Assembly (NCBI GenBank): GCA_003169975.1
Contig: PNAA01000034.1
Span: forward strand, 124,001 to 188,000
From: Spartobacteria bacterium
GTDB lineage: Bacteria > Verrucomicrobiota > Verrucomicrobiia > Chthoniobacterales > UBA10450
DNA: 64,000 nt
Reading direction: 5' to 3'
Made by a program: the position numbers and the translations under genes. The notes under the pieces are model-generated. The model searched no databases, was not told where the DNA came from, and worked only from the letters and a program-made list of their open reading frames with translations. Of this stretch, positions 39,399-41,847 are shown piece after piece. Positions within the stretch are counted from its first letter, which is position 1. Each line of letters opens with the position of its first letter.

Positions 39399-40331
39399 AT
39401 GCCGGCGAAACCATTTCGCGCGCCACAGCGCGCCCCGCTCTTCGCTCTGGTGGCGTTCGCTCTCGCGCTCCTTGCTTTCCTGCCTGCACCGGCCTCGTCA
39501 GCGAGCGGAAACTCTACCACCGTGGTGATCGATGCCGGCCATGGCGGGTTCGACCGCGGCGGAATTCCGGGCCAGTCGGTGGCGGAAAAAAGCATGACGC
39601 TCGACGTGGCCCTGCTGTTGCGCAAAATCCTGCGCGACGCCGGTTATCGCGTAGTCATGACGCGCGACAGCGATGTCTTCGTCACGCTCGGCGACCGGGT
39701 GCGCATTGCGAACAGCTACAGCCACGCCATTTTCGTCTGCATCCATTTCAACTCCGCCTCGCGCGCCGGCGCGAATGGGATTGAGACCTATTATTACAGC
39801 AACCAGAGCGCCGCGCTGGCCGCGAGCATTCACCGGCAAGTCGTCGCGGGAACGACTTCGGAAAATCGCGGCATCCGTCGGCGTGGCTACTTCGTTCTGC
39901 GCCGCACCACCGTCCCGGCCGTGCTCGTGGAGTGCGGATTCCTGACCAATCCGACCGAAGCGCGGCTCGCGCTGCAAAGCAGTTATCGCGAGCAGCTGGC
40001 CGAACGGATCGCCAACGGCGTCATGAATAAACCAGCGCCGCGCAATCGACCGGTCGTGGCCGGTCTGATGCACGTCGTCCCACCCGTCGAGCAACCGTTT
40101 AACTCCAACGATTTTGTCCGGGCGGACCCGGAGCGGACGCGGTTATCTCATCATTCCAGCAAATCCTCGAAGAAGAGCAGCAGCCGCAAAAAATCCTCTT
40201 CCGGTTCAAAAAAGAAAAAGTCTTCCACCAGCAGCTCGAAAAAGAAAAGCTCGAGCAGCACGAAGAAGAAGGAGAGTTCCTCCAGCACGACGAAAAAGAA
40301 AAAAAAGAAACCGGCGGAATCCGACGAATAA
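39399..40331 (+). CDS. N-acetylmuramoyl-L-alanine amidase (Amidase_3) with Ser/Lys tail
   Basis: The 310 aa protein has a signal peptide, then an Amidase_3 zinc hydrolase domain: 'VVIDAGHGGFDRGGIPGQSV' (first zinc His), 'EKSMTLDVALLLRKIL' (Glu), 'IFVCIHFNSASRAGANGIE' (second zinc His) and 'PAVLVECGFLTNPTEARLAL' (catalytic Glu). It cleaves the peptide stem from peptidoglycan in the periplasm during cell separation. The last 65 residues are nearly pure Ser and Lys (SSKSSKKSSSRKKSSSGSK and so on), an unusual basic tail that may bind anionic polymers. Confidence 0.94.
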   Translation: MPAKPFRAPQRAPLFALVAFALALLAFLPAPASSASGNSTTVVIDAGHGGFDRGGIPGQSVAEKSMTLDVALLLRKILRDAGYRVVMTRDSDVFVTLGDRVRIANSYSHAIFVCIHFNSASRAGANGIETYYYSNQSAALAASIHRQVVAGTTSENRGIRRRGYFVLRRTTVPAVLVECGFLTNPTEARLALQSSYREQLAERIANGVMNKPAPRNRPVVAGLMHVVPPVEQPFNSNDFVRADPERTRLSHHSSKSSKKSSSRKKSSSGSKKKKSSTSSSKKKSSSSTKKKESSSSTTKKKKKKPAESDE

Positions 40332-40332
40332 A

Positions 40333-41847
40333 TTGCACTCGCCCATCATCACTCCCGCGCAGATGCGCGCGGCCGAGGAAGCGGCCTTGGCCCGCGGAAT
40401 CACGGCGGAGGCGCTGATGGACCAGGCGGGCGAACGGATCGCTCGGGCGCTCACCAGGTTTTTCCCGCGTGCCGGAAAGTGCATTGTCTTCGCGGGCAAG
40501 GGACACAACGCGGGCGATGCCCTGGTCGCCGCGCGCTGGCTGGCCGAAGCGGGTTGGAGGATCGAAACGCGTCTGACCTTTTCGGAGAAGGAACTGAGTG
40601 CCCTAACGAGTGAGAAGTTGCGCGAGCTACGCGATCAGGAATGTGGGAGGGGCCTTAGTGCCCCGATTGACGCGACCCCGGGGATCGGGGCACCAAGGCC
40701 CCTCCCACATTCCCAGACCATTATCCTCGACGGGCTGCTCGGCCTCGGCGCGCACCCGCCGCTCCGCGAGCCGATTCGGAGCGCGTGTCGCGAAATCAAC
40801 TCGTTACGCGCCGAAGCCTATGTCATCGCGATCGACCTGCCGACCGGCCTGGACGGTGACTCGGGCGCGGCGGATCCGGATTGTGTCCGCGCCGATTTCA
40901 CGATCACGGTCGGCGGCGCGAAGCGCGGTTTGGTCGCGGATTCCGCGATTGATTTTGTCGGCCGGCTGGAAGTGGTTCTGCTCGACGAGCTGCGGGCGGG
41001 GGACCCGGGCGGGGGCGAGGTGGCGATCCCCGAATCGCTGCGTTACCTCCTGCCGCGCCGCAAATATTCCGCTTACAAAAATCAGTTCGGCCGCATCGGC
41101 ATCGTCGCCGGCTCGCGTGGCTTCACCGGCGCGGCGGTCATGTGTTCGTTAGGCGCGCTGCGCGCCGGCGCGGGTTTGGTGGAGCTCTTTGTCCCGGAAG
41201 AGATTTACGGAATCGTGGCCACGGCCGCTGCTCCCGAAGTGATGGTCAAGCCGGTCCAATCCTACGATTCACTTCTGGAAGAACCGATCGATGTTTGGGC
41301 GCTCGGCCCGGGTCTGGGCAAAGCCCGCGCTGGGGAGATTCTCGCGCTCATCCGCGACGCGAAACAACCGATGGTGGTCGACGCCGATGGTCTCAACATT
41401 CTGGCGGAGAACAGCGCGACGCTCAACGAGTTGCAGGGCGCGCGCCTGCTCACCCCCCATCCGGGCGAAATGCAGCGGCTCTTTCCGACCGCTAAAATGT
41501 CGCGCGCGGAAATCGCGACGAAGTTTTGCGCGCAGCACACTCTGACCCTGCTCCTGAAAGGCAGCCGCACGATTGTCGCCGAGGCCGGGCGGCCGCTGAG
41601 CTACAACACGACCGGCAATCCCGGGATGGCGACGGGCGGGATGGGCGACGTGCTCACCGGGGTGTGCGCGGCGCTCCTCGGCGCGAAACTGTTGCCTCAC
41701 GACGCCGCCCGGGTCGGCGCCTGGCTCTGCGGGCGCGCGGCGGAGCTCGCTGTCTGCAATGGCCATGCGAGTGAAGAATCGCTCCTGCCCGGCGACGTGC
41801 TCGATCACCTCGGAGCAGCGTTTTCCGACCTTCGCGAGTGTCGTTAG
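40333..41847 (+). CDS. nnr: bifunctional NAD(P)H-hydrate epimerase/dehydratase
   Basis: From TTG at 40333, 1 nt after the amidase stop, the protein is about 504 aa; ATG at 40363 would clip the conserved 'ITPAQMRAAEE'. The N-terminal epimerase domain (YjeF_N) has 'IVFAGKGHNAGDALVAARW' and 'IAIDLPTGLDGDSG'. The C-terminal dehydratase domain (YjeF_C) has 'GIVAGSRGFTGAAVMC', 'VDADGLNIL', 'LLTPHPGEMQRLF' and 'NTTGNPGMATGGMGDVLTG'. Together they repair damaged NAD(P)HX. Residues about 102-127 (ECGRGLSAPIDATPGIGAP) come from a palindromic DNA element inserted in frame. The stop codon TAG lies inside a TCGTTAGGC motif. Confidence 0.95.
   Translation: MHSPIITPAQMRAAEEAALARGITAEALMDQAGERIARALTRFFPRAGKCIVFAGKGHNAGDALVAARWLAEAGWRIETRLTFSEKELSALTSEKLRELRDQECGRGLSAPIDATPGIGAPRPLPHSQTIILDGLLGLGAHPPLREPIRSACREINSLRAEAYVIAIDLPTGLDGDSGAADPDCVRADFTITVGGAKRGLVADSAIDFVGRLEVVLLDELRAGDPGGGEVAIPESLRYLLPRRKYSAYKNQFGRIGIVAGSRGFTGAAVMCSLGALRAGAGLVELFVPEEIYGIVATAAAPEVMVKPVQSYDSLLEEPIDVWALGPGLGKARAGEILALIRDAKQPMVVDADGLNILAENSATLNELQGARLLTPHPGEMQRLFPTAKMSRAEIATKFCAQHTLTLLLKGSRTIVAEAGRPLSYNTTGNPGMATGGMGDVLTGVCAALLGAKLLPHDAARVGAWLCGRAAELAVCNGHASEESLLPGDVLDHLGAAFSDLRECR
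40638..40713. repeat. palindromic element inserted in frame inside nnr
   Basis: Two 30-nt arms (40638-40667 and 40684-40713) are reverse complements with a single mismatch, around a 16-nt loop. The left arm begins GGAATGTGGGAGGGGCCTTA. The element adds about 25 codons between the helix 'EKLRELRDQ' and the core strand 'TIILDGLLGLG' of the epimerase domain without breaking the frame. It has the look of a REP/MITE-type element that landed in a surface loop. Confidence 0.85.

Follow-up and report, generated by a model that had tools for sequence, protein, structure and literature searches.

The palindrome at positions 40638 to 40713 of the window (the whole stretch of DNA that was analyzed, 64,000 nucleotides) belongs to a multicopy family of REPINs, designated F1, and lies in frame within nnr, where it encodes residues 100 to 125 of the protein. 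We consider it very likely that a RAYT copied this REPIN into an epimerase-domain linker that tolerates insertions, that a filter for in-frame insertions kept it there, and that the same linker has been refilled across lineages. A single insertion of this type is a known kind of event, given the intragenic REPs reported in PMC3733652; it is the recurrence at one linker that looks new.

The element is 76 bp long, and its arms, 30 nt each, are 97% complementary. The first REP (GGAATGTGGGAGGGGCCTTAGTGCCCCGAT; positions 40638 to 40667, forward strand) consists of a GTGG tag and then a GGGGC...GCCCC hairpin; it is followed by a 16-nt spacer that differs among copies (40668 to 40683) and by a second REP (40684 to 40713, reverse strand), which is the inverted partner of the first with one mismatch. 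The best hairpin score in the window was 27, compared with 10 to 15 in 20 simulated first-order Markov windows of matched composition, and the RNA fold of positions 40618 to 40733 reached -72.7 kcal/mol (z = -8.6), with none of 200 shuffles equally good. The 30-bp inverted repeat with one mismatch was confirmed as originally described, and the computed fold supports the original prediction of a strong mRNA hairpin within the coding region.

A search of the source genome (G000, Chthoniobacterales) with the 76-bp sequence returned 82 F1 matches, each palindrome being counted on both strands, at intergenic sites as well as in other genes. Full F1 copies have the form AATGTGGGAGGGGCCTTTGTGCCCCGAT, variable spacer, ATCGGGGCACAAAGGCCCCTCCCACATT, the halves being GTGG-tagged hairpins, and solo F1 REPs are present besides them. 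These are the features of a REPIN: two inverted REPs around a spacer, a short hairpin in each REP that is tagged with GTAG or a variant, dispersal in many copies together with solo REPs, a mostly extragenic distribution, and a cognate RAYT adjoined by the same REP, which was found in five genomes. Among the retrieved loci, 54 distinct copies of F1 and of a second family, F3, were mapped (34 F1 in the source genome and 20 F3). Seven of the 54 are clear cases of in-frame copies in conserved genes, namely, nnr, a metH-like methyltransferase gene (between domains), dxr, glgA, dnaX, uvrB, and dnaE; most of the remaining copies have no Pfam-supported gene around them. Intragenic copies were counted if they were Pfam-backed, and a codon-usage test proved noisy; uncertain cases (PAD, DUF2339, molybdopterin, and a 958-aa open reading frame; L017, L232, L221, and L003, respectively) were excluded.

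The source genome also encodes a short Y1/HuH protein (L028) with an F1 REP immediately upstream, and the orthologues of this protein in G002, G010, G018, and G025 (67 to 79% identical) have F1 REPs nearby, so that across these five genomes the RAYTs near F1 REPs are 67 to 100% identical. G022 and G024, two incomplete assemblies with many F1 copies, yielded no close F1 RAYT, and no significant F1, F2, or F3 REP was found near the larger Y1_Tnp proteins (L018 to L020 and L022 to L024).

The gene nnr (40333 to 41847, forward strand) encodes a bifunctional NAD(P)H-hydrate epimerase/dehydratase with the Pfam domains YjeF_N (residues 24 to 197) and Carb_kinase (residues 254 to 474), and its start is probably the TTG at 40333. 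A single open reading frame spans the palindrome, as had been predicted, and the codons derived from the element are 100 to 125 (QECGRGLSAPIDATPGIGAPRPLPHS; 26 residues, numbered from 40339). Nnr is 502 aa long here, compared with 481 to 484 aa in four relatives that have neither the insert nor its residues (G001, G003, G004, and G005). The predicted addition of residues therefore stands; however, the figure of about 25 was slightly high, since the net gain is 18 to 21. Because this gain falls short of the 76-nt element, the linker around the REPIN must have changed as well, and neither a target-site duplication nor a clean before-and-after pair was found. The AlphaFold2 model of Nnr has a mean pLDDT of 90.5, and its only stretch below 50 is residues 105 to 123 (40651 to 40707, forward strand); the nearest solved structure is TM0922 (2AX3). 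In the model, the insert sits between the helix at residues 88 to 103 and the strand at residues 127 to 132 of the epimerase domain, in agreement with the placement originally proposed, and is predicted to be a disordered loop outside the folded core. Upstream of nnr, at 39399 to 40331 of the window, lies a gene for an N-acetylmuramoyl-L-alanine amidase that has a long Lys/Ser-rich C-terminal tail.

In other genera, the same nnr linker holds other REP families, F2 and F3, both of which are multicopy in this bacterial family. All F1, F2, and F3 matches in 73 nnr genes (E < 1e-4) fall within this one linker, in 10 genomes, and at that threshold none was found elsewhere in these genes. F1 occupies the linker in G000, G002, G024, and, as a partial copy, G069; F2 in G022, G021, and G009; and F3 in G027, G034, and G067. 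The site is empty in four of five close relatives (G001, G003, G004, and G005), and the length of the linker varies widely among relatives. A REP search was used here because the F2 copies and the decayed copies have broken outer stems; an ungapped hairpin scan detects only F1 and one F3 copy. The named relatives are soil Verrucomicrobia, Chthoniobacterales among them, and nearly all of their genomes are metagenome assembled; repeats may be misassembled, yet these structures recur across many independent assemblies. In most genomes of genus g5 (e.g., L056 and L057), the same nnr linker is occupied by an insert of another kind, about 37 residues long (...VTILELFAYAADSV...); the idea that it is a phage baseplate fragment was discarded, as no PHROGs match had an E value below 0.24.

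When the nnr tree is computed with the site left out, parsimony requires at least eight changes of linker state (the tree is a rapid one, and many of its branches are weak), and the minimum number of gains is three if losses cost nothing. The F2 copies of G022 and G021 are identical at 48 of 49 positions, compared with 73% identity of the nnr genes that contain them, and the nnr genes of G027 (F3) and G009 (F2) are 89% identical and hold different REP families; both comparisons favor independent gain. The REPINs of G000 and G002 share a spacer start and are therefore, to judge from their sequences, probably the product of one common insertion.

The same pattern was seen in dxr and uvrB, with one loop per gene. 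The dxr loop contains F1 in G000, G024, and G025 and F2 in G008, and the uvrB loop contains F3 in G000 and G005; further genomes have other repeat-like inserts in these loops, and the rest have short loops. These two genes were picked because they are hit in G000, and they do not measure how frequent the pattern is. An insert type, RPTPNAQRPTPN, was noted in both dxr (L278 to L303) and uvrB (L313 to L335) in several genera, and a uvrB insert type, VAAVYDRR..., also recurs in several genera; their sequences suggest that these inserts belong to further repeat families.

Most likely, a RAYT, which is a Y1/HuH single-strand transposase, acted on folded REP hairpins and copied the REPIN into nnr, where the insertion would have landed in a length-variable surface linker of the epimerase domain. 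No stop codon occurs in any of the six frames of 11 of the 17 full F1 copies, and because F1 REPs are nearly stop-free, in-frame copies could be read through as a disordered loop. Insertions that break the gene would presumably be lost by selection, whereas Nnr with the loop would still be made and active, and the effect of the insertion would be close to neutral. The same filter, operating repeatedly in related lineages, could have placed unrelated REP families at one nnr linker and, likewise, within a single dxr loop and a single uvrB loop.

It can also be envisioned that insertions are actively directed to the linker rather than simply tolerated there, either because RAYTs prefer its sequence or because a resident REP attracts further REPs, so that one family replaces another. 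The presence of three families at one site fits this view, as do the closely related nnr genes of G027 and G009 with their F3 and F2 copies, and Pseudomonas putida has an IS element known to insert into REPs (PMC8450116). However, the empty linkers, compared by eye, have no obvious target word in common, and the dxr and uvrB loops, which differ in sequence, are filled in the same way; we therefore regard a preferred target as rather unlikely. We think it still less probable that the hairpin has been kept for a function, such as slowing translation, stabilizing the message, or controlling nnr. Its predicted stability is very high, and a role at the RNA level has been proposed for REPs elsewhere (PMC3733652), but the hairpin is absent from most relatives. 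Moreover, decay of the palindrome has abolished pairing in G009, G067, and G069, whose linkers are still long; on this evidence the hairpin shows no sign of being maintained.

The element had originally been likened to the Rickettsia palindromic elements. That likeness is sound as far as the outcome is concerned, since those elements, too, are palindromes that lie in frame and lengthen housekeeping proteins (PMC10969869), but it does not extend to the family to which the element belongs. The Rickettsia elements are about 150 bp long, a length that the 76-bp nnr element does not reach, and a link to RAYTs is absent from their description in the consulted sections of PMC10969869, whereas the nnr element is RAYT linked. 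The two-REP anatomy, the GTGG tag, and the RAYT linkage are REPIN features, so it is very improbable that the element belongs to the Rickettsia palindromic elements proper or is an intragenic MITE of another kind, unconnected with REPs and RAYTs; the nnr element works like an intragenic Rickettsia element, but kinship is not supported. Native protein sequence that is palindromic by chance would suit the open frame and the variable linker length, but has virtually no standing, since the same DNA occurs genome-wide in intergenic regions and other genes, simulated hairpins score no more than 15 against 27, and the sequence is missing from four close relatives. The refuting observation named at the outset was not made, as no relative was found to have these residues other than by way of a palindrome.

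The F1 elements resemble the REPINs of Bertels and Rainey (2011; PMC3116915) in that they consist of two inverted REPs and a spacer, are multicopy, and are linked to RAYTs. Unlike that study, in which extragenic copies were analyzed, the present one concerns in-frame copies in conserved genes and another phylum. REPs within open reading frames have already been reported (PMC3733652): those with a GTAG tag were most numerous in the verrucomicrobium Opitutus terrae, many lay in repair genes, a GTGG tag variant was described for O. terrae GTAG-20, and one same-site case was given, Xanthomonas recB. The O. terrae elements and those described here have in common their occurrence in Verrucomicrobia, their location within open reading frames, the 20 to 30 residues involved, and the GTGG variant; they differ in that three REP families here refill one linker across genera and that nnr, dxr, and uvrB behave alike. 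The gene nnr is absent from those named in the main text of PMC3733652, and we found no description in the consulted literature of the refilling of one linker by several REP families across genera in three enzymes. In-frame REPs had formerly been scattered cases; here, one linker is repeatedly hit by unrelated families, with a similar picture in three enzymes. Selfish DNA can, it appears, settle repeatedly in the same tolerant protein loops; such recurrence provides replicates for the question of whether selfish DNA shapes protein loops, and it marks loops that evolution has shown to tolerate insertions.

Whole RAYTs also occur in frame within housekeeping genes. In carB, a RAYT insert of about 244 to 288 aa, without stops and always at one position, was found in at least 24 genes in the family; MPNHVH is the HuH motif of these inserts, almost every one of which also has the tyrosine motif. 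The Y1 domains that Pfam detects inside recG and carB of G000 both score slightly under the Pfam cutoff, whereas other genomes of the order have Y1 domains above the cutoff inside LeuRS, ValRS, and ClpB. We found no description of in-frame RAYTs inside housekeeping enzymes in our literature searches. The TnpA-Y1/RAYT proteins surveyed in PMC6006769 likewise have the HuH motif, the catalytic tyrosine, and REP-flanked genes; however, that survey dropped a few unusually long Y1 members as fusions or annotation errors, whereas many RAYTs lie in frame in host enzymes here. As a tentative proposal, which is quite possible but which we do not yet favor, the REP/RAYT system of the Chthoniobacterales may live within coding genes in the manner of inteins, without splicing: REPINs would refill loops, and whole RAYTs would persist in CarB, RecG, LeuRS, ValRS, and ClpB, with the transposase domain being made by the host enzyme. 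If this were true, any frame-breaking loss of an in-frame RAYT would destroy the host gene, suggesting that transposases may persist by residing in genes whose disruption is not tolerated.

Several related arrangements were noted. On either side of the carB RAYT lie peptides that are encoded by repeats and vary from genome to genome (L027, G000:C23:136039-136635; L337 to L366). In recG, a RAYT-like domain lies in frame and splits the DEAD domain (L026, G000:C5:349257-349532; L386, G014:C2), and many open frames of about 830 to 1000 aa resemble this arrangement. Other in-frame RAYT-like loci with a Pfam-confirmed Y1 domain were found in valS (L367 and L375), leuS (L368 and L371), clpB (L372 and L383), and a DNA methylase gene (L380); an HsdR-like gene (L379) contains an in-frame RAYT-like sequence without Pfam confirmation of Y1. 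Finally, L381 (G141:C330:22143-23582) has two tandem RAYT matches with identical scores and repeated peptides in one 717-aa frame.
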